From Pelecanus crispus (Eukaryota > Chordata > Aves > Pelecaniformes > Pelecanidae), in NCBI RefSeq assembly GCF_030463565.1, contig NC_134649.1, positions 37,411,044 through 37,475,043 of the forward strand: a stretch of 64,000 nt of DNA. Direction: 5' to 3'. Below are positions 41,930-64,000 of the stretch, piece after piece. Made by a program: the position numbers and the translations under genes. Each line of letters begins with the position of its first letter. The stretch's first letter is position 1. The notes beneath the pieces were generated by a model, which saw only the letters and a list, made by a program, of their open reading frames with translations, searched no databases and was not told where the DNA came from.

Positions 41930-42130
41930 CCGTTCTCATAATTATTATTTTTGACCCTGAGAGGACTGAGGATAGAGCATGGAATCTATTTCCGTGCAAG
42001 ACATCTTTAAAGCATGACATTTCCCTGCTACCTCATTAAATTAAGTGTTGTCCTCTTTTAGTGGCCTGGCTTTTTGAGTCCTGAATCAGACACATCATCT
42101 GATGAAATGTTTTGCAAGTAAATAATAACT
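41930..42130. promoter_or_regulatory. AT-rich candidate regulatory island
   Basis: Complex AT-rich sequence with ATAATTATTA and ATTAAATTAA cores, in otherwise GC-rich intergenic DNA. It shows no repeat signature and no coding potential. This is a weak call based on texture. Confidence 0.2.
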
Positions 42131-42632
42131 AGAACCATGTGCATTAATTTGAACTACCACAGGCATGGTAAAAATGGCACAGACCACACCACGCAGACAG
42201 AGCACGGGATTAAGATTGTGGGTGAGGACTATGCAGTTAGAAAACTCTATTGGGTTGGAACTGGGCTGATTTGGCAAGAAGTGGCTGAATTTTGGGGGGT
42301 TTATATTTTTTGATTCAGGGTCTCAGTTTTCATACAAATTAAATTTTGCAACCCTCATTGCAGCAAGAATAATATTGAACCAGGGAGTTTCATAACAGTC
42401 CACTGCTCCCTGTAAAAGGAACAATTCCTAGATCCTTAGCAGGGGAGACAAAAAAATGAATATGCATGAACTTTATGCTCAAGGATGTTTCCTCCAGATC
42501 ATGGATTTGACACAGCCCAAGAGGGAGAAGTTTTGCTCTGCCGCTTCCTATATTGTACCGGTTCTGTAAATAACGGGAAGTGCTTGTTCCTTTACCCTGT
42601 CAGTCTGACACTTTTCACCAGCTCCTTAAAAA

Positions 42633-42680
42633 TGTGTGTGTGTATACATATATATATATGTGCACACACAGTGCACACAA
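42633..42680. repeat. TG/TA/CA dinucleotide microsatellite
   Basis: TGTGTG, then an alternating TATATATATA core, then GTGCACACAC. The alternating purine-pyrimidine stretch could adopt Z-DNA and is likely length-polymorphic. Confidence 0.85.
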
Positions 42681-44079
42681 GGGAGAGGAAAGTGTTTGTG
42701 GAAGCGGGGTGTTTGTTGCCTATTTAATTTGTGAATTATTTTGGCAGTGGGAGAAACAGGCACCTTTCTGACTGCCTGCGTGAGCAGATCCTCATCGGCT
42801 TAAACGCTGCATCTCCTTTGTCTTGGCGAGGAGGAGGAGGGTGGAGGAGCGTTGCTGTTGCAGTGACTCCTAGAGCTAAGCGTCTTATATTCAACAGCCT
42901 CACACCATTGCTCAGGGTGAAATGTTCTCACGAAGTGGTGCAGGGTCACCTGGAGTGCCAGGCAGCCAAAGGATCAGCCTTGCTTGCGTGTCTGGGAGCA
43001 TGGCTAGCTGGAGGTTCATCCTAGAGCCGATGGGATGCGGGGCTGGAAGTTTAGGAAGTGTCCATGAGCCATGTGTGGGCAAGGACAGTGGGGGAATGAA
43101 AGGCTTGCCAAGCCGAGCTTGATGTTTACGTCTTATTACAGGCATGAACTGTATCAGGGAAGCTGATCGCGGGGGAGGTAGGAGATGGCTGAGTGACTCG
43201 CATAGCCTGGAATTGCTCCCCCGCTAATTAAGAGGAACAGAAAGAAGCGCAGTGAGGAGCAAGCCTTGAGGAAACCTAATGCTGCCATGAGCATGTGGGA
43301 ATATTCCCAGCCTCTGGAGGGGTTGTGCAGCCACCCACTGGGTAGGGGTCCCATGGGGTGGCACCTCAGATCCCCTCTCCTTGTGGCTGGGGAACATAAA
43401 TCAGACATGAGCCCTGGACCAGCTCTGGGCTTGCAAACAAAGATTAAAACTAGTAGCCTGTGTCGATAATCTCCAGCCATAACTGGCAGTCTCTTGAGTA
43501 AATTACAGACCTGCTCTCTCACGACCAGCTTCAGCCCAAAGAGGCATGTATTTAAAAGAAAATCTTTAAATATCCAAGGAAAGTCACCAGTTTTAAACGG
43601 CGAGAGACACATATGAAAACAGATTTTGAAATCAAGATAATCATGATGGCGCCAGCCAGATAAATTAGAAGATCCTCACCAGGCAGCCCTGCTTGGCTTT
43701 GACTGTCAGCCTGATGGACAAGAGAGGCATATTTTAAGCAGTGAGAACCAAGGGGTATAATTGTTTCTTACACAAGACTGTACACATGCTTGTACTTTAG
43801 AACAAGGAGAAATCAGACATCTCTTGCCCTCTGAATCTCTTTGGTGAACTGATGTTCATGTCTCCAAATGGAGGAGCCGTTCCTGAGCCAGACAGGCCCC
43901 GGGCCCACGCAGGAGCGGGCAGCTGGGGAGTGGAGGTGGGAGGTTTGAGCGAGATGCTCTGTGTGTGCAGCCCTGCCTTGGCAGCCCGTGGCCAGAAAGG
44001 CTGCGTCCCTTCTGGAAACAAAGGATGCCTTTTGCTGTGTGCGTTGTACAGCAGAATTGTGGTGGCTGGTGTGGCTTTT

Positions 44080-44300
44080 AGCTCTGACCTTTATTTAAAT
44101 AAAATGCAGAGTAATTTGTATCTAAGTGGAGTTGTTCTGTCTCATTAGTGTGATTAAATAGATGGCAGAGCGTTACTAAGTTCATTGTCAGAGAGACTGT
44201 TGCTTAGTAATTTAAACTGCAATAATCTCATTATTCAGTCATTTTTTTCTTACAACGATGGTGGCTCTGTTGTTACAGGCGCATTCATGGGCTTGCATGC
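44080..44300. promoter_or_regulatory. Candidate conserved enhancer upstream of the 45-kb CpG island
   Basis: About 220 bases of AT-rich but complex sequence with many TAAT/ATTA cores, TTATTTAAATAAAA, and paired TTACTAAG and TTAGTAAT motifs. It stands out from its surroundings and lies about 1 kb upstream of the second promoter island. Conservation cannot be judged from one sequence. Confidence 0.3.
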
Positions 44301-44989
44301 AAACCCCGACAACTGTGATGGCATTTAAAACATCAGGCCACAGGCTGTGAGAAGTCATTCAGGGTAAAGCTGAGTACGGGGAGCCTCTGGGACTTTCGAC
44401 CGCATAAGCCTGAAGGAGATTTTTGGTGGTATAGAAACAGAAATGCAGAACTAACAGTTGAGCTTAGGCGTACGGCCCTATAAGCCTCCTCTGCTTCAAG
44501 GACTTGACGGATGCTCTTCCTCTGCCTGCTCAGCGGGGCAAGAGGTGAAAGCGACCCTGCAGCCAGGCCCCAGTCACATCCTAATTAACAGCACCTGTCG
44601 CACACAAACAGAGATAAACCGTTTTGAAGCAGGCACTGAGGCAAAGTTAACCAGAGCCCTATCTATGGCTGCTGCGGCCTGCAAGTCAAGGAGGAGCGAC
44701 TCCGAAGATCGTTAAGGGCGCAGGAAGAGGAAACCCAACCCTCCCCACCCCGCGCAGGGCTGGCACCAGGCTGAGGGCCGCTGGGTGGGGGCTCAAAGCT
44801 CGGGGACAAGGCAGGGTGCGTGGCAAGGCCAGCTCAGGCAGAGGCATTCGCCTCGAAAAGGTGGAGGCCGTGTCCTGTGCTTGCCGGACAAAGCTGAGGC
44901 AGGTCCCACGCGGAGGCTGGCAGCTACAGAGGGGCTGCTTCTCCCCGTGGTTCTGCTTCCCTAGGCCGGGACTACGGAGAAGGCCGGCC

Positions 44990-45950
44990 ATCCCCACCTC
45001 CCCGTAGCTTCCGAGGAAGGGGTGCGCAGCCAGGCCGGGCTGCAGAGCGAGGACGGGGAAGCCCTGAGGCGCCGAGCGCTGCCTGGGCCTGCCGCACCTC
45101 CGCCCGCCCCAAGGCCGCCGAGGCGACCCTGCCCGGTGCCCGCCGCCCGCCCCGGCTCCCCTAGCAACAGCGGCGCTGGCGGCCGCCCAATCAGCGCGCG
45201 GCGGTGCGGGCCGAGCCAATAGGGAGGCGGACGGGGGGCGGGGCGTGCTGGGGTGGGGGAGGGCCGGCCCCGCGTCGCGACGCCATTTTAACGTCTGAGG
45301 AACAAAAGAGGCGAAGCCGCCGCCGGTGCCGGCCTGACACCAGGTAACGGGCGCGTCCCGCCGCTGCCCGGCGCCTGCCGGACGGCCCGCTCGGCGCTGC
45401 GGGCTCTCGGCGAGCCTGCCGCCGGCCTCCCCCCCTCCCCGGTGCCGTCGGCTCTGAGGGGGTGGCCGGGGGCTGCCGCTGGCGTGTGAGCCGCGGCGGG
45501 GCCCTCCCTCCGCAGGCCCCAGCCCCGCCCGTCGCGGGAGGTCGGCGCCCGGACCGGCGGAGGCGGGGGGAGGCGGCTGTCCGGCTTCCCGCTGGGGATG
45601 CTCGGCGGCAGTTTCGGGCGTGTGGCGGCGGCAGGAGGAGGGGCATTGCCCGGGCTCCGGGGGTGGGGGGTGGGCACTGCCATGGCTCCTTCCCGGGGGA
45701 GCGGGAGCAGGGCTCTGGCCTGGCATCACCCCCCGGGGGTGCGGGTTTGCTCCTTGATGCGGGGGCGGGCAACAGCGTTCACGGAGCGTCCCCGTTCGCA
45801 CATCGCACCGCTTCCTGCGAGCCCTGCGCTCCCCCGCGGGACTGTGCGGGGCGGCGGCGGGGGTTACCGGGGCGGGAGGTTTGCGGCAGCGCCGGGCCTG
45901 GCTCCGGGGGGCCGCGCAGTTCTGCGATCTTACGTGGCTGGGTGACCCCC
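44990..45950 (+). promoter_or_regulatory. CpG-island promoter, probably the upstream promoter of IP6K2
   Basis: A strong CpG island has two CCAAT boxes (45187-45191 and 45216-45220, 29 bp apart), a GGGGCGGGGC Sp1-type box (45235-45244), TCGCGA (45275-45280) and GCCATTTT, a YY1-type site, at 45282-45289. Motif order and spacing fit a TATA-less plus-strand promoter with initiation near 45.28-45.30 kb. A donor follows at 45343/45344. The next plus-strand gene is IP6K2, so an alternative IP6K2 promoter is the simplest reading. A separate non-coding RNA, or a divergent promoter, is possible. Confidence 0.6.
45285..45343 (+). other. Putative non-coding first exon with splice donor
   Basis: Sequence just downstream of the CCAAT/Sp1/YY1 cluster contains no ATG and ends in ACACCAG|GTAACG, a good donor. 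No coding exon in a compatible place follows until IP6K2. The acceptor TTTTAACAG at 61095 is the natural partner. The 5' end is approximate. Confidence 0.45.
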
Positions 45951-48900
45951 GAGCTGGTTGTCGCCCCTTGCTGTTACTCAGCAGTTCTCATCTGTCTGAA
46001 TCATAAAACGTTGGTTTTCCTTTTTGTTTGGGTGGTGGATGTGCTGCAGGCTTGGCGACTGTTTCATGCACTCTGTAATATTACAGAATGAAGAAAAAGA
46101 GTGCTTCAGGAGGTGTTGCATAATTGGACGTGATGCTCACGAATGCCCTTTTGCTGTGTAAAACGGAAATAGTGGGTGATGTCTTGTTACGAGCTGGTTT
46201 AAGCATCACAGCTTTGGTAACTTGTCTTGGGGCCCTCAGGCTATTAAACAAAAACATGTTTGAGGCTTTGGAAATCGGCATAGTGCTTAAGAAAATAAAT
46301 GTTATAATTGTTGATAGAATAACAGCCTGCTGGTAGTTACACCCTGATATGTTCTTGGCCTTAATTCCATTGTGAAAAGTATGTGTGTTTAACACTGATA
46401 TCTTTCCTGATATATGCTGGAATTTAATTGTCCTCTACTAGCTTGCCTTTTTATTTTTTTTGACACTGTGCCATATGTGTCCCATATACTCAGGTGTTTT
46501 AGAGATGCATCCAGTGCCCATATGCTTCTTTAGGCTCATGAGCATCTAAGGGGGCAGTTCTCTGTCAAATATTGTAATTAGAATTTTGCTTTAATGTTTT
46601 GTTCTGGAACATTAAAGTTAATGTGAGTCTGTTTTAACTTTTCAGTCAGGTGGTGTGTTTTTGATCATTACTCATCATGTAACAGTGAAGTGAGAGTAGA
46701 GCAGTTCAAATTTGATGCTTGAGAATAACACGTAAGGGTTATTTTGGCTTTTAAATGTCTAAGAATTGGCATCTTTGCTCATAACTTTGCTTACAAAAGA
46801 CAAAAACTATTTGTAAAATTTGAAATTGTCTTTAAGTTGGAATTAATTTGCATATTTTCAGGACTTATGATAACATTAAGGAATGAAACTGGGTTTATAT
46901 ACACATGCATCCACACACAAATAATTGAAATGTGTATTTGAACAGTGGACTGATTTATTTGTTTACATTTGGCCTGTTGAGCATCTTCCAGCTTGTTGCT
47001 ATTTTTCTTGATTAGAGTATATTACAAAATGAGGAAGAACCCAATGATTTAACTGTCAGAATTCAGGAATATTTCTTCAAAAAAGAATAATCTTCAGTGC
47101 TCAGAAGTGTCTCCTGGTTAAGGGTTGCAGGAAGAATTACAGCCATTCATATGTACTTATTTGTAAAAATTTCAGACCTTAACCTTGGCCAGGTAGCTTT
47201 TCATAAATTTATGTTAATTCATTTGCTTGAAAAGCCATTTTCCTACATGTTCTGTCTTTGCTGTTTGTACCTTTCTGAAGTAATAATGTTATCTTGTCTG
47301 TGGTACTTTAGTCATTCAAGTAATGTAAGCTTTATGTTGCTGTTCCTTCTTGAGGGAAGGTAGATGGGAGCCATCATAACCATGCAGTATGGTAGCTTGG
47401 GAAGGATCTGGAAGACTGGATAGTGGTCAGTCATATGAATGCTGGTCTTTGTGCTCTCAAAAATTCTTTCCCTACCAGTTGCTTGCAAGGAGGACCTCAG
47501 ATTTGTCAAGCATGCAGTTTTGAAAAAACAGGATGAGAAAAGATGTTAAAGAAAGAAACTCATTGCTGCCTGTCAGTGGATGGGTGTCCAGCCAGGTCAC
47601 TGGTATGGTGGTACTTGAATTGTTCTCTGATCAGCTGGGGAGTGTGAGAGGATATTTTGGGGATTTTTTTTTTTTCTTCTAAGGGGTAGGGGAAGTGTGT
47701 AAACCTTGTCATAGCTAAGGGTGTGTCAGTCTGTCAGCTGTGGTGCTAGGGACACAAATGCCTGCCTCTTTGGTTTAGGAATAGGTAGAGGCAGGGAAGT
47801 GTATGCTGTCAGGTTGATGGTGAAAAACGTACTTCACTAGTGACAGAAATGCCACAAGGATATTGCATCTAAAGGGATATGTTAAATAGTCATTCTTAAA
47901 AATCTTTAATTCTTTACTGTCTGAATACTTTTTAGTGAATTGAATTAGATAAGGTCTGGAGGAATTCTGAAGTAACTGGTATTAGATGTCAGTTACTTTT
48001 GATGATTCTTGTCTGACAGTGTTTGGAAATCAGGAGACAGCTGAGGTGTTTCTCTGGGAGGTCAGGAGCACTGCTCCTGCAGCCGAGTCAGTGCCTGCCC
48101 GAGCTCCGGAGCAGGTCCAGATCCACAATAGGCGAAGCAAGTGTCTCCTCAGTAACGCTTCTGATGCTGTCCTGCCTGGGGAGCTTCACTTCGGGTGGGA
48201 AAGACTAGGGGCAAAGGCAGGGTTTTGAAGTGAAGCATGATTTGATGTGGTTTATAATGCTAAGCCGAGGTGTAGCTTCTTCCTTTTTTATGTAGTTCAT
48301 TGGTTTCCTTAATATTTCTGCACCAGTGCTTCAACACAGAACTTTTTAAATGGGTAGGAATGTATTCCAAAAGTTCAGATACTGCGTCAAAAGATTGAAA
48401 GGGCAGAAATTGAGTTGGGACTAAAAATTTTGACTTGAATGCGGTCTAGGGCGCTAGCTGTACCCAGAAGTGTGGGGGTAAGAGCTAAGCTGTGGAGTTT
48501 GAAGCTTTATTAGGCTGATATTTTATATCCATAATAATTCTTGTGTGTCTAGTGAGCATGGGCTAGAACCATTATCTGAAAGCTATCAGGTTTTTACACT
48601 GGTGTGTGGAAAAACTTGCTGCCTCTCATTCAGTTCATCCACTTATCAGTTGTTGAATTTGCTGATGCTTAGCTTGTCCCTGTTGGCAAGAAGCTGCGGT
48701 TGGTCTCCAGGCAACGCAAGTCCGGCTGAGCATCTCAGCCTTGCTTTAAGAGATGAAAATTTTCCATTGCGGGGAGAGGATTTTTCCTCTCTCGCTAATT
48801 CTTTTATCTGGCTTTGTCTTGCACAAGGTTATTGTATCTTTGAAACAATATAGGGATGGCTTTCAAATGTTAAGAGGCTACATTTTAGAATTTTAAGGTG

Positions 48901-51900
48901 TAACTGCAGATGTGCATTTCTATAGCTTTTGTTAGAAATAGCTCATTAGAATGTTATTTTTGGGCCTTTCATAGTAACTACTTTGTTTCAAAATAATCCT
49001 ATCTTCCCCCCCTTTTGCAAAAAGCTGTATGACACAATATCATGTGCTGTAAGTAGCTCGAAATTTCTCCTTCTGCAAAGTCTGAAATACTGCAGACATA
49101 ATGGAAGCAAAATTGTTCAAGTGAAGGTCTAATGTTCATTGGTTATGTTTAATTGGGTGTTCAGGAGCTTGAAATAATCACTGAAAGCTTTTGCAACTTC
49201 TTGACTTGTGTAGCACTAAGTCTTTGGAGTCCTGACTGTCTCAGAAAGACAGGCTGTGTTAGAAGGTAATGATAATCTTCATAATAGGTACAGAAAGTAC
49301 TCTTTCACTCTACTGGTTATCAGATATTTAACCTGCAGTCTTTGATGACGCTGTGTCTGGGTTGCTGGTGCATATGGAAGATTGTCTATTGGAGATAGTG
49401 GGAACCAGTTAGTGCCCAGTTTTGCATTGTTTTACTAGAAAAAGAAAGGCTTGCTCATGAAATGGTTTTGGCCACTGAGAGTCTTGCTTTATGAAGACAA
49501 ACTCTGTGTGTGTTTGCCATGATGAATGGTTGGGCAAGAGACTACACAGGAGATGGCTGGTTTGGAGCAGTGTAAGTGCTCATCAGCCAGTTAATAGCCC
49601 AAACAGAACAGGTAAGTACTGAATTCAAGTAGCCTTTCAGCTGTACTCCTCTCTTCATTCTTGTCTTCTGTCCTGCTGTGTTGACATCCAAAAAGTTGGA
49701 AGGAAGTGGAAAAAAAAAAATTTGGATCACTTGCTGATACTGTTTAATGATGCCTCAGGTTGTTGAGACTTACAGTGAACAAGCTCAAGGACAGAAGATA
49801 CAATTATTTAGGCTATTTTTCCTCAGAAAATCACACTTAGAAGTAAGAGTTTGGGGGGTTTATGCCAGAACTTGTATTAGAATAAGTGCAACAAAAATTA
49901 TTTTCTCGAAGCACAGAGGGCTTTGAGCCTACCCAAATAGCTGTGCAGTGTTGTGATGCAGAAAATTTTCTACAGTGCCTGAAACCTTATCAGGAATTAT
50001 GGGTGGTGCCTAATTTTATGCTTATTGAAGATGACATCTTCCTTTTAACATTTGCTCTTTTCCTTTTTCATATCTCTTCCCAGAACATCATTTTGGATAT
50101 ATGGGGAGAATGTGATGGCAATTGATTTTTTTTTTTTTTTACAGTGACATCAATTAGATGAATGTAGTTCCTTGTTACAAAGGTGAGGAGTGAAACTGCT
50201 GACATGATAGGCATCATCTTGATGTGTCTGAGGTGTTAGCTCTTTTAGAAGATTGATTCAGTTTAACTGAAGATAGGAGGTTAAATTGATGGGTGGATGT
50301 GCTCATCCTGAAATAACCAGCATTGTAGCTGGGAATCTGTTCAAGCTAACTTAGGAAAAAATTTGGATCTGGCTTAATATAACCGGTCAGTTTTCTGAAG
50401 AGACATCTGTGAATATTAAAGTTGAGGGTATAGTTCTAGATGGGGAGGGAACAAAATGTTTTTGGAGAATCATTTCAGAATTCCTGGAAACAAGTAGTCT
50501 CTCAAGGATGAGGGGTAAATGAAGTAAATGCTCATGGAGCTGCAGTGAGTTGTGTGGCAAGAGGACTGTCTTTCAGTTCTCTTGAAACAAAACCTTTCAC
50601 ATATTTAGATGTTGAATGATGATTTATTGTTTTAAAGTGCAAATAATGATTTAACATCACTATGCACAGTTTGCTTCCAAAAAATAAAACAGTCTTTTGT
50701 AAGCTTGAGTTCTCCTTGAAAATTTTTTTTCCTGACAGTATGCTATTTTTTAGAAATACAGAATTGAACATGAGCACAGTGTGGATGGCAGTGCTATATT
50801 GAAGGTTTTTGAAGAGAAAATGGGGTTTCAGCAATCATCCTGTCTGAGTCTTCCCTTTTTGGTTCGTGGTTGTTTCTCTTTGAAGACAGTAGTGCAAACC
50901 ACACTTGCTTGTGCTGCAGAGTCACTGGCTGCTATAAAAATTGCCTGTAAAGCAACAGATGTGTTTAAGGGAGTAAGACTTATAGTTGTGTCCCATTACC
51001 TGAGCTAATAAAACTTGTGCTTTTGTGTCATTAAATGTAGTTCAGCCTGTGGGGGGGTGAGCGCGATACAGCCAAGCTCCTGCGAAAGCTTCCTTTATAG
51101 ATTACTGAATTTGATAAGATTTTAAGTGGTTTTGTACTGCTGTTTGAATATGTAAACTGTATGAGATTGAAATGGATTAATATTTTGACAGTGATTATTA
51201 TGGTGAGCCTATAATTGGCCGCAGATGGTGTACTATGTGATCACTAAAAGATAAAACATGAAATATGTAAATAATTTTTTTTTAAAAAGCATTTTTTAAG
51301 TGCTGTTCAGGTGTGCTTGTACAAAAGATCCTTGTCCCTTTTACTAGGGAGAAACTGTGCTTGAAATGAGTTACATTTACCAGGGGAAAGATTCATGACT
51401 TTCCCCTTGGTTTTGTTGTGCCACATCAATCTTGTAAGATTCCTCTTTTGTCCTTACTTGCTCACATCCAATCTGCTACAGCTTAGCAGAAGCACAGTGA
51501 AATTATTCTTTTGTATTTTTGGGGTTTGAACTTTGGTAATTGCTCAGTCATCTTGGAAGAAGCTATACATTCAAGGTCTTAGGACCCAGTTATTTTCATA
51601 ATTCTTTTTAGAGAGAGAGCATGTAGAGGTCACTGAATCCTATAAACTCTTCCTTTCAAGGTGCAAGTCTGGGTTGTGTTATCTGATTTAAGATATGTTT
51701 TCAGTAGTTTGAAATGTTTTGAAACATAAATACAATTTTAAAAGGTATGTTAAATTCATCTTATGAACTTGAGCTGCTCTGGAGCAAAACTCCCATCTGT
51801 CATGATCATCAGAAGTAAAGTCTTGGAATCTACACTTGAAGAATTGTAGTTAAAAATCTGGATGGGCATTTCAAGTCTGATGACTGTCTCCTGTGCTACT

Positions 51901-54900
51901 TTTTGACCAGTTCATACAAAAAGGAACTAAGCTTCATATGAAATATGTTGATGGTACAGATGAATATACACATAAATGGGATGCATGAAATATGTAACTG
52001 CGTTTTGGGTGCCATTCTTCCTGCAATAGTTTATTTATAGATGATCTTTGCTTTGTGCTTCTATGGAAATGTCTGCTCAAGGAGTTAGATTGGATTGTAG
52101 GATTTGGTCATCTAAGCTTAAATTTAACAATCTTGTCCTGTGGGCCACTAGCGCTTATGGTTTAAGAAGTATTAGGGCTTGGGATTTGTGAAGGGAATAC
52201 AGACATAGAGAAACTTTGTGTAGTTAAGTGAATGTGACTTTTGAACAGGACTTGACAGTTATCCTCTTGAGCAACTTCTCATATATGGCAAATTGGTCAC
52301 AACTCAAAGGCCAGTCATAAAGGTACCATGTTCTTTTGAGTGGCTAGAAATACAGTTCCCAGACTGCTAAATTCATGGTAACGAGAAAGGCATAGCCTTG
52401 GATTTATTTTAATCTTAATGCTGAAATTTCTGGCATTTTTGGTATTTTGAATGACACTTTCATGTGTGTAATCCACACAATTTAGCTCTTGCTGTCATAT
52501 TTTCAGAAGATTAAAGGCTGAATGCTATTTTGGTTTCTCCACGACAAAGGGCAGTATTGTCTTCTTATAGCAACTGGTGTTTTTAGCCACTGGTGCCAGA
52601 ATACTGTTCTAAGATGGATCAGTTTCTAAATAGGAAGTTTAAGTAGCTTAGTTTTGGTGGTTCAGGTTTCTTAGTTTCCATGGCATTTTTACTTGGAAAA
52701 GAGGCTAGTTCTTAAATTACACAATCCCTGGAAAAACTGCATGGGTCAGAATTGCATGCTCTTTTTCTGGCTGAATATGCTTAGTAACCTGTAACTTGGC
52801 TTTATTTTAATTCTAGGGAGATAAAATAACATTACTTGAGAGGTAAAGCTCTGGCATTTCTCCAGAGCTTTGTGTGTAGTTAAGTTTATAGATTACAAAT
52901 GGTGTAGGGAAACCTGAAAGCTGTTGCTTTTTGGGATGCTGAAATATTAGTTCTACTGAGCACATAACCTCCTCATTGAGGTTTAAGAAATTGCAGCTGA
53001 GGGGTTTCTGTGCATGCTTCTTTTAAGAAAAAGCTAGAAGCTCTTGGAGACCACCTTGGTTACTGCCTTGCTTTCCAAGACAAAAGGATTGGGAAACAGG
53101 ATTTCTCCTAGTAATGTAGAGCTGGTTTAAGGAAGATGGGGATATTGATTGTGCATGAAGAACAATAATGGAACATTATACAACTTCAGATTTTTTGTTT
53201 ATTGTTTCTCCCTTAATATGTTATGCTTAGATATATCAGTGTTCCATAATTCTTAGTTTCATCCATTTAAGTTGTATCCAGAAGTCTTTCTGGTATTTGC
53301 TACAAGAGGTGGCTCTGCAGCTATGGTGTTAAATTTACAGGTGTAAATGCATGTCTTGTGTGGTAGTGTTTATTTCTCATAGTAGCTACTGCTGTGTTTG
53401 GGTTATATTTAAAGGAAGACAAAACTAGAAGTTCATGTTTAGAGAATAAAGGGAGATAGCATAAAAATGTTGCTACTTTAAAAAAATGTTTTGTGCTGAA
53501 AAAGTACACATTTCTATACATTTGTCAGCATCTGAGTGCTTTGTCTTTCTATATTATAGACAAAATTTCTACTGGATAGACCTGATTCCCTCTTTACGAA
53601 AAGTGATGTGTTCAAAGGGTGTTGGCTTATGCTCTTGCGAAGTTCATAGCAGAACAAGATCTTGAATGTAGCGCTTTGGCTACAATGGCAAAGGGCTCCC
53701 ATGTTGGACTGCCCTCCCTCTGTTTTCAGTGGAGGGGAAAAGATCTAGAGGAGTAGTACCTTCAGGTGTGACAACATGACCTGAGGTCCTCAGAAGAGCC
53801 TAGGGTGTTTCAGGATGTTTTTCTGCACCATAGTTTTAAACTCCCCAGAGGGTTTTTTGAATTACTTAGTGGTTTTGAAGAGATGTTAAACCGTTATATG
53901 TTTACAAAAATGTTGGAATGTTTTTAAAAAAACTAAACACTATTTCAGCTGTGTTTGGCTTGTCATGTGCCAGTGCTAGATGAGCTCTAGCACAGAGTAT
54001 ATAGATTTTTCTTAAAATCTAATGCCAGTTGGTGTTAAATTTATTGTTAAATTCCTCCAATAATACAGCAGGAGACATGTATACAACTTGATAGAGGGAG
54101 TTCCTGTAATTGCTGTGGAGAAGGGCAAGGCCTGCTGCTTTAATTTATTGAACTGATGAACAGATACTTTTCCACCTGCTAATAAGCATGCATTCTTTCT
54201 TGGTGGGAATCCTTTGTTTGCAGTCTAATGTTAAAAATAGGATTAGCTTTCTACCCTGATGGGCCAAGACTGCTAGCTCTGTCATGTTCCCAAAGGGTTT
54301 TGCTAACATGTTTTGTAGAAACTTTGTGTATGAGTTAATGTATAGTTCTGGGTTCCTAGATTCAGTCTGTTTTGTGTGATTAAGTAAATTAATTTGAGAT
54401 TTTTTTTCTTATCTGGAGAAGTTTTTTCATTTTTTTGGAACTACAACAACATGTTACTGCAGTTACCAGCCATTTAATAAAGACAGATTAAAAAAACCAT
54501 ATTACTTTATATCATCACTTTTAACAAGCAGGTGGTTTCTTTTATTGGTCTAGCCCAAGCACCCTACATTCAACAAGAAGAATTTGCTCTTTTTTGGCTT
54601 GTTGTATCTATAGGTGGTTATGATAGACTCATCACTACAGTGCCTGACTCCCATCACCCTCATCACTTACCAGTGAAGGCTATAGTAAAAGTATTTCTGC
54701 TTGGAAAGGGATGCACGTGTCGTCTCAATATGTAGGTGTGGAGGAGTTGGTATTTTACTCTTGGATTTGTAAGTGTTCCTGCTGAGTCTTTTTACAATAC
54801 CTCATGCTTACTCATCTCTGAGTACAAGTCATGTGGAGGTAACTTAATGATTGTTACATTGATTGATTTGCTGCAGAAGAGCTTAATTAACCTTGACTTG

Positions 54901-57900
54901 CGTAGAAACTTAGAGCTCAGCATCTTTTTTTTTTTTTTTTTTTTTACCATCACAACCACTTGGTTTAAAGTTATTCTTAATGAAAAAGAAGGGTGTTTTT
55001 CCACTCTGGTCTTTCTTTTAAAATAAGCTCAATGGAGAAGTCTTCTGAAATACCTTATGGGTCTGGGTATTTCCAGACACTAGCCAAATTTGTTAGCGGA
55101 TGTTGCAGAGACCTAGAGCATGGTGCTGCCTTGTGTTGTATGTCGTTCTTGCATATGGTCACTTGTGAGATGTCCCATTCTCCTCCCCCCTTGATGCTGT
55201 GGCACTGCCCCTCTTCCCCCCCATGATGTTGAAAGCTATTAAGTCTGCTGTATTAAATTTGCATTACTTGTAGTTTAGGGGACATTTTTTTGTCAATGCA
55301 CTCTTGTACTGAAGATAAACTTTTTCCTTAAAATTAGTTACCAGAATAAGTGCTTGTTTCCTGTAATCATGCAGATTTTAAGGCTGTTCTTAAGGCTTTT
55401 ACCAAAACCGTAGGATTCATGTGAGCACATTATTATGCAAGCTCTGCATTTTTACCTGATGAGATAAAAAGCTAGAAACTATAGCTTTTATTGCTTAAAC
55501 TTGGTTATATGTTACTATTGAAGGATACAAAAGGCATCAAAAGCATCATAGCGTGGGACTTGCATGATACTTAGAGGTATAATGCATCCTTGAAGATAAG
55601 AACTTATTAAAACAGTTGTGATAAATGAACACAGAGATCTTTTTTTCTGTTAAGAATGAAAAACATCTATTGTACAGGGTTTGCTTCCTAATCTATATGC
55701 AGTTCATCTTTCAAATGTAATTTTGTATTTCTGATATGTTTTAAGGCTGCAGACTGGACACTAGAGAATTTGAGTATCTCCATTCTAGTCTTAAGAACTT
55801 CTGGAGCAGAACACACCAGAGTAACCTCAATTCATGAGCCAAGCAGCAACTAAATTGAATGTTAGAAGCAATCCCTCACAAATGTTAGACTGGGCAAATT
55901 TGCTAATAAAATAGTGTTATATGTAGAGGAATGGCATTGATTTTCATCAAAATTAACCACAAGTTGTGCAAGAACTTTGAGCCTGAGCATGTTTAACATA
56001 TCTAATGTTTTTAATATTCTGATGTTGCATCCTCTGCTCTGTATTTTGTGTTCTTTGATTCAAGGAATGTACCTTGCTGTTTGCAAAGTAACAGAATACT
56101 AGTAACAGAATGTGTAGTTTGGTCACATAAGGACTTGTAAAATTCCTGTCACTATTACAGCTTGATAGGTGTATTGTAGGTTCTTAAAGTGTGTTTATTC
56201 TGCTTCAGTCATGAAGGGTCATTCTCTTTGAGCATTGTAATGATTTACCAACTTAGACCTGAGGTACCTTTTCAATTTTGTGCACAAAACAGGTGGTGGC
56301 CTCTTGCAAACATACCAGATGCTTTCCACATTGATATTTGCATGTTCTTATGTCCTTTCTCAGCTGGTATTCCTTTCTTCCTGAGCCATCTTTGGGTTGA
56401 AGGAGCTTTCTCTTTGGCTTCTTTAATGGGTCACTGACACTCTTTTTTTTTTTTTTTCTCCTGTTGTCTGGCTGTGCCATTCCTCTGTTTCCTTGGAATG
56501 TCGGGAAGGGGCTTAGCTTTGGTTCAGTGGGGTTATAGCATCCTGCAGCAGCTCTGCTCTGGAGGTAGCTACCCTGTCAGCTTCCTCTTTGCACTGCCCA
56601 GTGAAGTGAGAAAAGGACAGGCAGAAAACTTTGCTGCCTTGCTATTTCTGTCACTGTAATGCTGATTTATGGCTATTTGGAGCTGCAGATATTGACCACC
56701 CAAAGTAAAAAGTCTGCACTTGAGAGAACCTGGTTTTAACAGATTGCTTAGGTGGGCAGCTCTGCATCAGTAATTCAGCTATTGGAATGTTTTGGGAAGA
56801 GGTGTTTTTGAGATTGTTATGAAGGAAGGAGCTGCTGCTTAATTGAGAGCGGTGCTCTCCAGAGGATGTGTTAATGCAGTTGTGTACGGGACTAAGTCAA
56901 GAATCTGTAATGACATTAAATACCTTCCAAAGAATGCCATCACCTGAGATTAATATTAAAGTCTGAAAACATGAGTTCATTGCAGTATTCTTTCGATGGT
57001 CATTGTCACATGTGAATGAGAATAAGAAGTCTGTACATGTCACTTCTGTCTTACAGATTTGGGTTTTAAACGTCTTTTGCTGCATACTGTAAGAATGACA
57101 TGGCTCAAGCTGTTATTATGTCTACACGAGTTTTTATTTGCTTCCTTCAAGTTACGTCAGATTTTTCTTTTAAAATGCTTGACATGTCAAGGAATAGTAC
57201 ATCTGCCTTTTTCTGCTGATGTGTCCTTTGAACAAAAGAACTTAACCAAAGGCGCTTAAAAGCACGTAGGAGGGAAAGGGCAGGGTACACTGAGCCTGCG
57301 TTTGCTGTCTGGAAGACTGCCTGAAAACAGCTGTTCTGTGCTCTTTCTCTTGCCCAAAGTGCATTGAAAACAAACTGGGTGTAGAATCGGAGGAAAGGCA
57401 GTGAAGAACTGTATTGTGGTTATGCTGGTTGACATCAATGCCACTTCAAGTATTGGTCTTAGGTTAAAGTTTTTATTTCTAAGGAAGTGGAACCAATTTG
57501 ACACACTTGTGAGGTTTTTTATGGTATTTATAAATGAAGCACTGCAAAGCATTTCTGATGGGCATTACAATTGTGCTCTAGGTCCTGTTGTTAATCTGAG
57601 TGGCAAGATTCCCAATATTGAGTAGAGCCAAAATGACAAATAAATCCTGATTGTTTGTAGTGGTAATGTGAAAGCATGCAGCAGGAAAAACCTTAGGATC
57701 TTACCCAAAATTTTTTTGCAAGTGAGAACTTCATTGGATGAAAACAAACTGAATTTATTAGGTAAACAGTGCTTCTTATCATGAAAGCTAAAATACATTA
57801 ATTGTTCAAAGTGCAAACTGAAACCTCTGGATTCATTAAAATATAAATTATAGACAAGATTGTGCAGGCTTGCTGCTGCCTTCTTGAGCACTGCTTGGTT

Positions 57901-60700
57901 AAAGGCTTTATGGCAAGGAACTCCTTGCTGACGCTGTTCAGCAGTCCTCTTGCACGCAGCTTTATACTGCGTAGCTGTATTCATACAGCTTTTCCAGCAG
58001 GGGCACACACTACGGCAGTCTCACAGTAGAAACAGAACATGTGGGAGTTGCACTGTGGTTTTGGAAGACAGAAACAGAAGGAGAGCTTACTAATACAGGC
58101 ACAATAAACTCATCTTTATTTGTTTGAGTTTCCCCCTTTATCTCTGGTAGATGCACATTTGCCTTGTGGTCATGTGGACTGGGTATGTTGTTTGACTATG
58201 TATAGATGTTTCTAACATTTCTCTCTTAAAAAAAAGCCCAAAACAAACCAACCACACAACCAAAATAAAACCTGCCTAAATATTTCGTAACTGATACTTT
58301 TATAGTATCAGGGCTATAAAAAAGTTGCTTTGTTACCCCTCAAACGGGAAGTTACACTGTGTGATGTGCTGCCAGATCTTACTTTTTCAGGAAACGGTAG
58401 AGCAGCATGAGTAGTCCTGTCCAATTCTCACGTGGCAATGGGATTGCCAAGCACAACGTGGTGCACCATGTGCAAGTATTGTCTGGACCACTTGGGTATC
58501 TGTGAAAGCAAACAAGTTTGAGCTGCTACTAATGAGCTCCCTGAACATGTGTTGGGTAAACAAGGTGGCGTGCATTGTCTGTATTGGAGGTGCTTTTTGC
58601 TAGAGAGTCATTTCTATAGCATAAACATCTACAAGGCTTAACTGCTGATGCAACTCTGATGCAGTACTACTAGGACTAACTACGTGTTTGAGGTTCAGGG
58701 ATGTTGCAAGGTACTTTCTCAGTTTGAATCGCTGCAGCTGCCATCAATGTCTGTACATCAGGGGTAATTAGGAAGGCGGCCACAGAATGGTAATGCTGTC
58801 TTGGAAAGAGTGGCTCTTGTAATGCTGATGTACTGTGATACTATTAAAAGTGGCTCTGCCGGTGTAAAGCACTGCCACCACAGGATCTTGTACCTTTGTA
58901 GCTGTGCCTCCCGGTGAAAGCTGGCACTCTTCTGGCTTTCCCTGGGAAATTCCAGAAGACTGGAGGCATTGTTGGCTCTAGGAAATCCCGATGAAAACTC
59001 TTGAGACTTGTATAATGCACCAATGATTTTACAAACGCAAACTGATGCTTAAAATTTCTCTAATAGAAAATGGAAGCAACTCTCAGTCAGAGCTGTGCTC
59101 GGGAACTGATGCGGCTTGCTAAGCGTGCGTTTGGTGAAAGCCTGAAGTTTGCTACACACTGCTGGTAAGCCAACTTGCAGTCGCGTCTAAGGTGAGGAGC
59201 AGCGTGGCCCTGCGTGGAGCGGGTGGTACTGTGGGGAGACATGGAGCAAATCTGTGACTCCAGAGCACTCACAGTGCCACCTTCCGACTGCGGCAGCTGC
59301 GGAGATGGGTTGCACTGCCTGGTACTGAGGGCAGGCCAGGGCACATGGCTTTCCATGCTGGCTGGGCACCGCTTGGTTGTAGTTAAATAGTTGTTTGGAA
59401 ATGGCTTGTGTCCAGGGTGGAACTGAGAGGTTTTTAATCTGTGTGTGTCTGAGTTGTCAAGTTGTTGATGTTGAGGTAAGAAACTTCTCTGGGGATGCAG
59501 TAGCTGCATTATAAAAAAATAGTGGGAAATAGAAAGTAATAGAGATGGAAAGGTTACTGATTTTGCTCTAATCTTAAAATATAAATAGAGTATCAGAAGA
59601 GAGTATTGTTTCTGGGAAATACTACTCCAGTTTAAATTTTACATACTCTTGCAGAGGTATGCACGAAGAATCTCGTTTTCTGTAGTAAATAACTAGCTAA
59701 AAAAAAAACCTGGTAACTTTCTGTCAAATAAGGCTCTTGAAAGAAGGGGGGCGGCGGGGGGGAGTTAACCAGTGTGTAGTGAGTAAAAACTGTATTGACC
59801 TGTTATCCTGAGGTGCAGGTAAATATTCCAGGAGCTGGAGTTCAGCTGATCGATCTGTTGTTTATCAGTTTAGTTGTTTAATTCAATTAATGCCCTTAGG
59901 TACAGGGCATGCTGTAGGCGTCTGTAGTTGTTAGGGCTGCTGCTTTAAGCCCGCAGGTCTCTGCTTTTCCAGTTAATGTAAAGCTGTTAAATATATAAGG
60001 AGGACAAATAAAAATAGACCTGTGACCTAGAACACTTTGTAGTCTCTTTGAATTAAGTGCATTATTGTTCGTGTAATGATCTTCAGACAAAATAAGTACG
60101 AGGTTGTTTTTAGCTGCAAAAAGTTAATCATTAAAGCTCAGGTCTAAAATTAGAGCAACTGGACTTAAAAATTTACTGGAAGGTAGAGACCAAGACAGTC
60201 ATGGTTTTTTTTTTAGCTTTGCTCCTTTAATTGCATATTGAAGTGCAAGTTGCATGAAACTGGAGGCTGGCCAGAACTGAGCAGTGCATAGTCACAGGGC
60301 TACAGATGCAGATGGCACAAAACACTCTGCCTTCTGCTGTATTTACACAAAAATAAGTTCTTGGAAAATGGCTTACTAGCATTATGTTTTTCATCTGAAA
60401 AGTTAGCGTCTATGTAATATTTTAAATATCTGACCTGTTGTGAATAAAACGGTGAAATAAGTGTCCAGCCTGGACCTCGGCAGGTTTCTGTGATTGCTGT
60501 CATTGTCTGAAGGGAGGAATTGTAAACCTTCTGAATTTCTCTGGCTGGCCTGGGATGCGCGCTGTTAGCCGGCAGCGCGGGGAGGGAGGGATCGTTGGGA
60601 ACGCTGATGCGTCCGTTTCTGTGAACGGACGCTGGAGGACGTCAGGCGTAACTTGAAGTAGGACTCGCCAAGACTTAGCATCAGTATTTTTTTAATTAAA
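45344..60700 (+). other. Long AT-rich region, probably IP6K2 first intron (upstream promoter form)
   Basis: After the CpG island the sequence becomes visibly AT-rich and stays so for about 14.5 kb. I see no coding exon, tRNA, recognisable microRNA precursor or young retroelement on either strand. Only T-runs (for example 54925-54945) and a few small hairpins occur, such as the 10-bp stem 52845-52854/52862-52871. The change of composition at the island fits a long intron better than intergenic DNA like that upstream. Confidence 0.45.
54925..54945. repeat. Poly(T) run of 21
   Basis: A mononucleotide run with no attached retroelement. A similar T-run lies at about 56440-56457. Confidence 0.9.
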
Positions 60701-60729
60701 AAAAAAAAAGGCAGGAGTTTTACCCGCAG

Positions 60730-61080
60730 CTCGCCCTCTGACCAGCGCCGCCGGTGCGCGTGCGCGGCCGGGCCGGGAGGGGGGAGCGCTCCGCGGGGCT
60801 CTCCGCCCCGCCCCGCTCACGCCCCGCCCCGCGGCGGCTCCCATTGGTTGCGGCGCGCTGAGGGGCGGGGCCGCGGCGGGGCTGCCTGGCTGCGCCCCGA
60901 GCCTGGCCCGCAGTCGGCCGGCTCGGCTCGGCTCGGCTCTGTTCTGCTCTGCTCTGCTCTGCTCTGCTCCCCGCGGCTCGGAGCAGCCTGCGCGGCCGAC
61001 TTTGCTAGCGGCACCGCCTCTCAGCCTTGCTTACCCAGGCCGCAGCGTGCGGGGAGACTGACGGCGCGGCGCTCTCTTTG
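60730..61080 (+). promoter_or_regulatory. IP6K2: CpG-island proximal promoter of IP6K2
   Basis: This is a dense CpG island with several GC boxes (CCGCCCCGCCCCG near 60803, GGGGCGGGG near 60862) and an inverted CCAAT box (ATTGG, 60843-60847). No TATA box is present. Initiation is expected at about 60.88-60.92 kb. I see no strong donor between there and the start codon, so transcripts from this promoter probably run straight into the exon carrying the IP6K2 ATG. Confidence 0.75.
60917..60970. repeat. GGCTC/TGCTC pentanucleotide repeat at the IP6K2 transcription start
   Basis: About four GCTCG units are followed by about six GCTCT-type units, giving some ten tandem pentamers within the CpG island, in or beside the IP6K2 5' UTR. 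Pure tracts like this are often length-variable. Confidence 0.85.
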
Positions 61081-61095
61081 TGTTTGTTTTAACAG

Positions 61096-61192
61096 ACTTT
61101 TGAATCGGAACAAACACCTTCAGGTCTCCGAGGCTTCTGGCTCTGAACTGCCTTCACTACTGTCGCCTTCTTCTGTCTAATGTGCTACAAGG
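61096..61192 (+). other. IP6K2: IP6K2 5' UTR segment with possible internal acceptor
   Basis: TTTGTTTTAACAG (ending 61095) is a reasonable acceptor with a pyrimidine-rich lead. The following 97 bases lead to the ATG. A message from the 45-kb exon could join here, while one from the proximal promoter would keep the sequence before it. An in-frame TAA at 61178-61180 closes the main frame upstream. Confidence 0.5.
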
Positions 61193-61299
61193 ATGAGCCC
61201 AGCATTTGGAGCTATGGAAGTGGAGCACTATTCCAAGGGAGTCCTGCTCGAGCCTTTTGTCCACCAGGTTGGAGGACACTCCTGTGTCCTCCGGTTTAA
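61180..61299 (+). CDS. Upstream ORF overlapping the IP6K2 start, 39 codons
   Basis: An ATG at 61180 in a weak context (C at -3) opens a 39-codon frame, +1 relative to IP6K2 in position terms, which ends at TAA 61297-61299, over 100 bases inside the IP6K2 coding sequence. Ribosomes that use it cannot start at 61193, so it should lower IP6K2 translation unless skipped. The IP6K2 ATG has A at -3. The peptide resembles nothing I know; the role would be regulatory. Confidence 0.4.
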
Positions 61300-61394
61300 T
61301 GACAAGACCATCTGTAAACCCCTTATTCAGAGGGAACACCAGTTCTATGAGACTCTCCCAACAGAAATGCGTAAATTCACTCCGCAATATGAGG
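61193..61394 (+). CDS. IP6K2: IP6K2 first coding exon, residues 1-67 plus one base
   Basis: It runs from the ATG to the donor GAGG|GTAAGT at 61394/61395, a near-perfect match. It ends with [21 protein letters not shown], the conserved start of the kinase N-lobe, plus the first base of Gly68. Confidence 0.95.
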
Positions 61395-63719
61395 GTAAGT
61401 TACCAAACCTTAGGATGGGGTTGGGCTTTTTCTTTCTGTAAATACAAGCGTGCTGTGCTCTCTGTTGTCTCTGAAATCTCTTCTGTGTGGAAGAGATTTT
61501 AGGGTTTTCTTTTCATGTATTTTGATGTTGTCTGAGGCAGGCTGTGGAGATGCAGGGTGGAAATGCTTGCCAAGTTGGTGTTTGGGCTGACTAACAGCAT
61601 TAGAGTAGAGCAGCTCTGCTGGTGATAGCCCATATATCTCCCTTAGGCACAGGTAAGTAGCTAACAGCTTGTGAATGTTTTCAGTAATTCTCTGCTGCTT
61701 TTTTTGTGGATTTCTGATTTTTTTTTTTTTTTTGCCACTTGTTTAATGTTTGTTTACAGGGATTCGGTAAGAGTGGTTGACAGTGTTTTGTGTAAGCTTA
61801 GTTGTGGTCTCTTGGTTTTGGATTTCTCCTCTGACTCTCATTTTGATCACAATAAATACATGTCAGCAAGGTGTCATGTTGAATATTTGCAGTGTTGTTT
61901 CTGCCATTAAGGAAATGAAAATCCATGGCATTTAGGTAGGCAAGGATCAAGTAGCTGTGATGAGGCTGAGTCAGATATTACGTAGGAGTGGAAATTCCAG
62001 TTCTCCTAAGCATTGTGCTAGTTTAACAGAAACACTTTTCTTTCTCTTTGCTATTCCATCAACTGCTGCCTGGTGATTAATAAATAATATGTCTGAAGCA
62101 CTTTTTAAAATGGAGTTGCTTTTTAAAGCACATTGATTTTAACAGCCATAAGGGTGATGAAGTTTTGCATACTGTTTGTGAAACTGGCGGAAGACTTCAG
62201 AGGAGGTGTTTCAAAGTTTTATGCTCCCTGCATGCTTACAGAGACTTTTTGACATGTCTAACTGCAAGTTCTGTTGGACTGGAAGAAAATGTGATCTTTG
62301 AATGATACTTCTTAATGTAATAGAACAATTGTACTAGTGTATATGGCTTTTTGGGGAGTGTGGGGAGGGACTTAGGGGTAAGGGGCCTCACTTGGTCCGT
62401 CTCTGTTATTTTTTCCAGGATAAAGCCAAAGGCCATTTGCTAGCTGGCTCCCCCCTTTTTTCCTGTTGTCCTTTCCTTTGTGGCAGCAGGACTGTCAGTC
62501 AGAGCTTCTGCGCTCCCTGCCCCAGCTACTGTAGGTCTCGGAGCCGCCTGCCCAGCTCAGAAGTGCCAATCTCTCGCCGAGACCTCTCCCCTCTGGCCTA
62601 GTGATGAGCTGCAAGAACTGTGCAGACTGGTTGATATGAGAATAAAGAGAGAGGACTGAAAAAATAAAATTAAAAACCAATTCAGACAATTGTTACGGCT
62701 TCTTCATTAACTGCTGAAACTTGCTAATGTAGCACTGAGCGCATCTCTGTCAGAGCGCTCCACTAAGACTCTTAAAATGCAATGCAGTGCTCTAGAGACT
62801 ATTGAGGGGAGGATGAGAAAAAAATGCTTTCAAGGTTCACCATGTTTCTGTACAACAAACAGATTTGTTTTGTATTGCATTTTTGTTATTTATTTCACAA
62901 GATTGCTGCATAACCAGTATCAATAAAATATATTCCAAAAAGGAGAAGAAAATGTATAATTAAACGTGGTGATTAAGTGGAAGCTTTTGGACTAGTTTCT
63001 ATTGTAATGTGACATTTTCCTTGTTTTGCTCTACTTGCAAATCTTTCCTTTCCCCTGGGGATCTATTAACCGAATCTTGTTTGGATAATAAGTGCTTTTT
63101 GCTTTGCTGTTGTGCAAAACTTAAAGCTTTACATCTTGCTTAGGGTCAGACCAGTCAGGTTTTTCAAATTAATAAAAACTTTTATTAATTGAAATTGTCT
63201 CCTGTTATTATTTGATTCCTACTTGACTGCATCGGAGAGAGAAAAGAACCTTTTGTATCATTGTTTTGTCAATATGATAAATTGTCTTTTGTGAGGTGTC
63301 ATTTTTGTCTAGGTCTTTTGATATTTGTTAGGTTGGCAGATGAGGTTTGGCCTGTGGCAAGATAGAAACTAAGGACCAGGGTAAGAGAAAAAAAAACACC
63401 TAAAGTTGCTATACTCTTAGTGTAAAATCATGTCTTCTAAAAGGCTTGCTTGTCACTTCAGCAATTCATAACTGTCTGTGTCCTTTCTCTCTTCAGGTGT
63501 GGTGTCAGTGAGCTTTGAAGAGGATGAAGATGGAAACTTATGTCTAATAGCATATCCATTAAATGGGGACCACGATAACTTAGAAAACCTAGATAATTCT
63601 GACTGTGAACCCAAAAGTAAGCTGTTGCGATGGACTAACAAAAAGACAATGTTGTTAGAAAATGAGAAGATACCGAAGGAATGGGTCCGACAGCACAGGA
63701 AAGAGGAAAAAATGAAAAG
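61193..63719 (+). CDS. IP6K2: Inositol hexakisphosphate kinase 2, N-terminal part, runs off the window
   Basis: IP6K2 phosphorylates InsP6 to the pyrophosphate 5-InsP7 with ATP and acts in the nucleus and cytoplasm in growth and apoptosis signalling. Coding parts are 61193-61394 and 63497-63719, joined in phase 1 through Gly68, giving about 141 residues before the window ends. The N-terminus [11 protein letters not shown], then [18 protein letters not shown] and the short linker [14 protein letters not shown] are IP6K2-type; IP6K1 and IP6K3 differ in both. The catalytic PxxxDxKxG motif and later lobes lie beyond the window, so activity cannot be judged here. The ATG has A at -3 and follows an in-frame stop at 61178. 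A second in-frame ATG at codon 8 also has a good context. Confidence 0.95.
62419..62690 (+). other. IP6K2: Probable alternative terminal exon of IP6K2 (68-residue truncated form)
   Basis: A strong acceptor (TTATTTTTTCCAG, ending 62418) is followed by a GC-richer block of about 200 bases in an AT-rich intron. AATAAA lies at 62641-62646 and again at 62663-62668. Joined to the first coding exon in phase 1 it reads Gly68 then TAA (62421-62423). After that stop the same frame continues as SQRP, then ASW, then FPLW, which resembles the tail I recall for a short human IP6K2 isoform, with the human Gln codon CAA replaced by TAA. The human match is from memory and needs checking. Confidence 0.55.
62641..62668 (+). 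terminator. IP6K2: Intronic poly(A) signals of the IP6K2 alternative exon
   Basis: Two AATAAA hexamers, 62641-62646 and 62663-62668, lie about 220 bases after the alternative acceptor at 62418. That spacing suits a short terminal exon. Confidence 0.5.
63497..63719 (+). CDS. IP6K2: IP6K2 second coding exon, residues 68-141 plus two bases
   Basis: The acceptor is TTTCTCTCTTCAG (ending 63496) and the donor is AAAAG|GTAAGT at 63719/63720. It encodes [20 protein letters not shown], the acidic linker and [12 protein letters not shown], all collinear with IP6K2. It ends with two bases of the next codon. Confidence 0.95.
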
Positions 63720-63878
63720 GTAAGTTTGATAGGGGGAACTGGAATGCAGAGTGTTGAAGCATAACATTTTTTGCTGTCAAATTAGGATCTGGTCTCCAGA
63801 ATTCCAGAGAACTCTCCAGGACTCTTAACTTTCATTTTCTTTTCTTCTTTCTTTTGTTTTTTTTCCTGACTTCTTCAG

Positions 63879-63924
63879 TGCAGACAGGTTCAGTAGTGAA
63901 ACTCATATGTCCTCAGCCCAGTAG
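63879..63924 (+). other. Possible second alternative exon end in IP6K2
   Basis: A very long pyrimidine tract ends in CTTCAG at 63878. If joined to the preceding exon (ending AG), it reads Ser then 14 codons to TAG at 63922-63924. The acceptor is excellent, but no poly(A) signal is seen nearby and the tail matches nothing I know. It may be a decoy acceptor. Confidence 0.2.
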
Positions 63925-64000
63925 TGTGTTGAATCTTTTCATTATTCTTTTTTGCTGTAGTCAATTAAAAAAGGTTTCCTTATGTTATTTTTGAAGCTTC

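Follow-up and report, generated by a model that had tools for sequence, protein, structure and literature searches.

A candidate intronic terminal exon with an early stop codon in IP6K2 of Pelecanus crispus

The window, that is, the whole 64,000-nucleotide stretch of Pelecanus crispus DNA analyzed here, carries the 5' part of IP6K2 at its end, and the remaining gene continues past it. The gene is identified through presumed human protein sequences, since sequence searches of Pfam, NCBIfam, and PDB returned no hit. The first exon, which we take to be that of IP6K2, shows 82% identity with the presumed human IP6K2 sequence and 54% with that of IP6K1. The exons were searched each alone and joined against Pfam and PDB (for PDB, the second exon was the only one searched singly) and joined against NCBIfam. 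A later IP6K2 exon outside the window (L002:4900-5079) encodes PCVLDLKMG, which we take as an instance of PxxxDxKxG, presumably the kinase motif. Two more IP6K-related loci are present in the genome, at C7:31.3 Mb and on C17. The former is presumably IP6K1, whose presumed human sequence it matches at 95% over its first coding exon, and the latter was taken as IP6K3 by elimination. The neighbors PRKAR2A, SLC25A20, and NCKIPSD, sought with presumed sequence pieces, were not found (no match for PRKAR at E values up to 1; 0.27 and 0.09 for the others). IP6K2 makes the signaling molecule 5-IP7, as stated in PMC10907089, and PMC4063336 and PMC5345130 link it to apoptosis.

Directly 5' of the presumed IP6K2 5' leader lies a pentamer repeat array with the consensus TCGGC (60914-60981; 13.8 copies). 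The composition of the window shifts sharply over 42001-60000: in 2-kb bins, the GC content is 0.50-0.60 as far as 42 kb, then 0.474 (42-44 kb) and 0.647 (44-46 kb), and finally 0.36-0.44 for 46 to 60 kb. The intron after the first IP6K2 coding exon is 2.1 kb long, and the features that concern it are given below, with splice scores from an approximate weight matrix.

61193..61394, + strand: first coding exon of IP6K2, with ATG at 61193 and 67 codons plus one base (phase 1), by translation
61395..61400, + strand: common 5' splice site GTAAGT at the start of the intron (donor score 6.41)
62387..62391, + strand: candidate branch point CTCAC with its A at 62390, 28 nt 5' of the acceptor (consensus match)
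62396..62418, + strand: alternative 3' splice site, pyrimidine tract plus AG (score 9.56)
62419..62690, + strand: candidate skipped terminal exon, approximate at its 3' end (sequence signals)
62421..62423, + strand: TAA, the first whole codon past the junction (translation)
62427..62489, + strand: block whose 21-residue post-stop frame resembles the presumed human short-isoform tail (tblastn)
62450..62489, + strand: long pyrimidine tract ending in the tandem acceptor CAGCAG, for exon starts at 62487 or 62490 (scores 5.94 and 4.22)
62641..62646, + strand: poly(A) signal AATAAA (sequence match)
62663..62668, + strand: poly(A) signal AATAAA (sequence match)
62688..62706, + strand: candidate downstream element, moderately U/GU-rich (by eye, unscored)
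63497..63719, + strand: next canonical coding exon, whose acceptor (9.98) is in competition; donor 8.62 at 63720

The earlier note had described a strong acceptor in the right phase followed by two AATAAA signals, and all three were confirmed (9.56, phase 1, and AATAAA at 62641 and 62663). The acceptor 62418/62419 ranks second among the 142 AGs of the intron, with the canonical acceptor at 63497 included. Counting these two, 8 of the 9,476 AGs found on the window's two strands equal or exceed the score of the candidate. Splicing of 61394 to 62419 would give a product of 68 residues ending in FTPQYE-G-stop, in which Gly68 is encoded by the split codon G/GA and is followed by TAA. The statement that the first new codon is a stop thus holds for the first whole codon, while a glycine is completed before it. 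The product would lack a catalytic motif, as had been claimed, the PxxxDxKxG motif being encoded by the later exon at L002:4900-5079.

Two sequence features expected of a skipped terminal exon are predicted here: an upstream donor with a new intronic acceptor, and an intronic poly(A) signal past that acceptor (62641 and 62663). The best donor within 480 nt 3' of the candidate acceptor scores only 0.32, against 6.41 and 8.62 for the true donors, and the block reads as a terminal exon because no usable donor lies within that distance; a near cassette exon was rejected as unlikely for the same reason. Farther on, a moderate donor (4.83) at 63381 would imply an exon of about 960 nt. The core of the block (62430-62619) has a GC content of 58.4%, compared with at most 46.3% in other windows of the same intron. 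A search of the genome (1.31 Gb, 310 contigs) matched the segment 62300-62750 once, and a repeat element as the identity of the block was rejected on that basis. Repeats within the intron belong to short families only, and no Rfam match was obtained at the gathering threshold in 60500-64000. Among viral contigs, one search for relatives gave two pattern matches, none confirmed, and a second gave 0; phages gave none. Genome contigs gave 43 and 54 pattern matches, none of which was confirmed.

The AATAAA signals on their own are weak evidence, because the intron holds six of them against 0.95 expected, a count reached in 0 of 1,000 simulations. In 1,000 introns simulated with a first-order Markov model, 2.9% gave a comparable acceptor followed 100-400 nt on by AATAAA or ATTAAA. 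The same test in the real window found two places on the + strand (50145 and 62419) and none on the - strand, and one place when restricted to AATAAA. The argument from these chance rates is moderate rather than overwhelming. The modest GU-rich downstream element, the moderate donor at 63381, and the A-rich DNA around 62660, which is liable to internal priming, were counted against the terminal-exon reading.

The other IP6K introns served as controls. Of 10 introns from the three IP6K genes, a set short of all their introns, only the candidate-bearing intron of IP6K2 has both a poly(A) signal and an acceptor scoring 9.5 or more. Exon edges in this set were assigned automatically, several of them with improbable splice-site scores, and since one IP6K3 exon was not located, one of the counted introns may really be two. 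Weaker pairs occur in later IP6K2 introns (8.98 and 6.82) and in IP6K3 (7.38 and 6.69), and a stronger acceptor (10.73) without a poly(A) signal lies in an IP6K3 intron. The 8.98 pair is formed by an acceptor-like site at L002:3992 and a poly(A) signal at L002:4299. A blastn search at E values up to 1 in two 9.5-kb stretches of IP6K1 and IP6K3 found no match to the candidate exon, and an exon common to these paralogues was rejected on this result. AATAAA is absent from the equivalent IP6K1 intron; the end of the equivalent IP6K3 intron is uncertain, its next exon not having been found.

We take the human IP6K2 short isoform (UniProt Q9UHH9-2) to be annotated with an alternative terminal exon, and its tail, written down after the bird sequence had been read, presumably is DKAKGQRPLVSWPSLPHFFPWSFPLWPQGSVA. 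The human tail letters used by both readers are presumed ones and not a database record, and the comparison was made with the peptide. The best tblastn match of this tail in the window is the block at 62427-62489, with 65% identity, an E value of 5e-6, and 32.0 bits. Shuffling the tail 500 times never gave a score as high (best, 29.6; median, 21.6). This supports, for the presumed tail, the likeness between the post-stop frame and the human short isoform that the earlier note had reported. The first five tail residues, DKAKG, are encoded exactly at 62419-62433, in another frame and from the first base of the exon. The first bird bases fit the back-translated human tail at 28 of 29 positions with one 7-nt gap and at 26 of 36 without a gap, and the gapped fit is unique, at 1 of 127,880 window positions (the first 15 bases being the prefilter). 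In the simplest alignment, the bird would differ from the human tail by a one-base phase difference at the junction and by one missing 7-nt CAAAGGC-like repeat unit, and the two together would restore the downstream frame. The human isoform also appears to share the gene, the donor, compatible exon-start letters (GATAAAGCCAAAGG), and a similar stretch QRP..SW..FF..SFPLW; it presumably reads DKAKG and on for about 30 residues, whereas the bird reads Gly and then stop. If the presumed tail is right, the letters TAA are not necessarily a novelty, as the bird would read the exon-start letters in a different frame. The change of CAA to TAA proposed in the earlier note was not borne out, since the presumed human tail has no Q at the stop position (DKAKGQRPLVSW) and DKAKG is intact in another frame. 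Fragments of the presumed tail were not found in a literature search.

At the DNA level, the best-conserved part of the peptide, FF..SFPLW.Q, corresponds to the long pyrimidine tract 62450-62480 with the weak tandem acceptor CAGCAG at its end. This speaks against a peptide reading: such a "peptide" could be preserved by constraint at the RNA level, and selection acting on RNA processing is plausible.

On balance, we consider it probable that 62419-62690 is a skipped terminal exon with intronic polyadenylation that yields an early-polyadenylated, kinase-dead IP6K2 mRNA and likely diverts transcripts. In part of the IP6K2 pre-mRNA, the first coding exon would be joined to 62419, and cleavage after AATAAA 62641 or 62663, at about 62660-62700, would produce a short mRNA encoding the first 67 residues and Gly only. 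This mRNA should escape junction-dependent decay, because no exon junction follows the stop. Its likely role would be that of an off-switch, diverting transcripts from the full-length kinase, and the balance would be set by competition with the near-equal acceptor at 63497 and also by the U1 snRNP. The sequence itself shows the signals, the phase, the stop, the single genome match, and the lack of a good donor within 480 nt; from these we infer use in RNA, the off-switch role, and homology with the human short-isoform exon, the last by way of a presumed peptide.

The main contender, to which we give a distinctly smaller chance, is that a cryptic acceptor and AATAAA signals coincide in an AT-rich intron and that there is no exon. 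The abundance of AATAAA in this intron, the second qualifying place at 50145 on the + strand, the weaker acceptor/poly(A) pairs in other IP6K introns, and a per-intron rate of 2.9%, which is non-negligible genome-wide, all speak for coincidence, but the candidate acceptor nearly equals the canonical acceptor in strength, the core is GC rich, and the presumed human tail aligns right from the start of the exon. It is improbable that the terminal exon is instead entered through the tandem acceptor 62487/62490, which would give a protein of 124 or 123 residues with a tail of 57 or 56 residues and a TGA at 62657-62659, just 5' of the second AATAAA. The long pyrimidine tract at 62450-62480 and a frame open as far as the poly(A) signal are compatible with such an exon; however, its scores of 5.94 and 4.22 compare poorly with 9.56 for the strong AG upstream, the 60 nt before 62487 contain no branch-point match, and the human form presumably enters at the equivalent of 62419.

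The explanation that we find hardest to credit is the loss of a coding tail through a single CAA-to-TAA change, with the exon surviving: the post-stop frame is like the presumed human tail, as this explanation would have it, but the missing Q and the intact DKAKG in a different frame oppose it, and a shift in phase combined with a 7-nt difference in the repeat is the better fit. A cassette poison exon leading to nonsense-mediated decay, in place of a terminal exon, is very unlikely. The immediate stop codon would suit it, donor 63381 (4.83) would give a cassette of about 960 nt, and human IP6K2 exon 3 (ENST00000432678), which is not mapped to the candidate, is variably skipped in liver cancer according to PMC6923823, whose abstract and results disagree on the direction. 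Against it stand the best donor score of 0.32 within 480 nt and an AATAAA at the right distance. From PMC3937324 came an accession but no account of isoforms.

The putative terminal exon is a good candidate for an element of an already known kind, with a bird twist. Skipped terminal exons are described in PMC5928244 as mostly 5' events, 84% of which have AAUAAA or AUUAAA, in introns far longer than average. The isoforms described there resemble the candidate in having a small new exon with its own acceptor, an intronic AAUAAA end, and a place early in the gene; they differ in that the IP6K2 intron is short (2.1 kb) and the candidate is a prediction from sequence. The nearest mechanistic precedent is intron 3 of CstF-77 (CSTF3), where a conserved intronic poly(A) site is controlled by splicing competition and the U1 snRNP (PMC3708835). 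There too the poly(A) site is early, and the short mRNAs, without apparent protein, are proposed to lower full-length expression; yet use of that site is proven, and its 33.2-kb intron begins with a very weak 5' splice site (PMC3708835), whereas the IP6K2 intron has a moderate donor. In the literature collection searched, no paper combined IP6K2 with intronic polyadenylation.

A further reading, which we offer tentatively and think rather doubtful, is that an early-termination exon has been kept in IP6K2 since the bird-mammal ancestor purely for RNA processing, with mammals reading a tail and the bird a stop, and that the "peptide" is a constrained pyrimidine tract and tandem pseudo-acceptor that tune exon use. 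The element class itself is already well known. If birds and mammals did share an early poly(A) exon whose tail is translated only in mammals, they would provide a natural experiment in which the two kinds of selection, on RNA processing and on a peptide, are separated.

Other splice-like sites are present in the same intron. Its top donor-like site (8.7) is a perfect CAG/GTAAGT at 61650-61658, upstream of the candidate exon, which is similar to recursive splice sites or U1 docking sites; CAG/GTAAGT occurs 2 times in the whole window against 0.54 expected. The donor-like GGGGTAAGG at 62375-62383 (score 4.23), about 40 nt 5' of the candidate acceptor, is a possible U1 site close to the poly(A) signals. 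A second, weaker acceptor (6.46) is followed by AATAAA at 61851 (61760-61856) and, by eye, would read GGG ATT CGG TAA.
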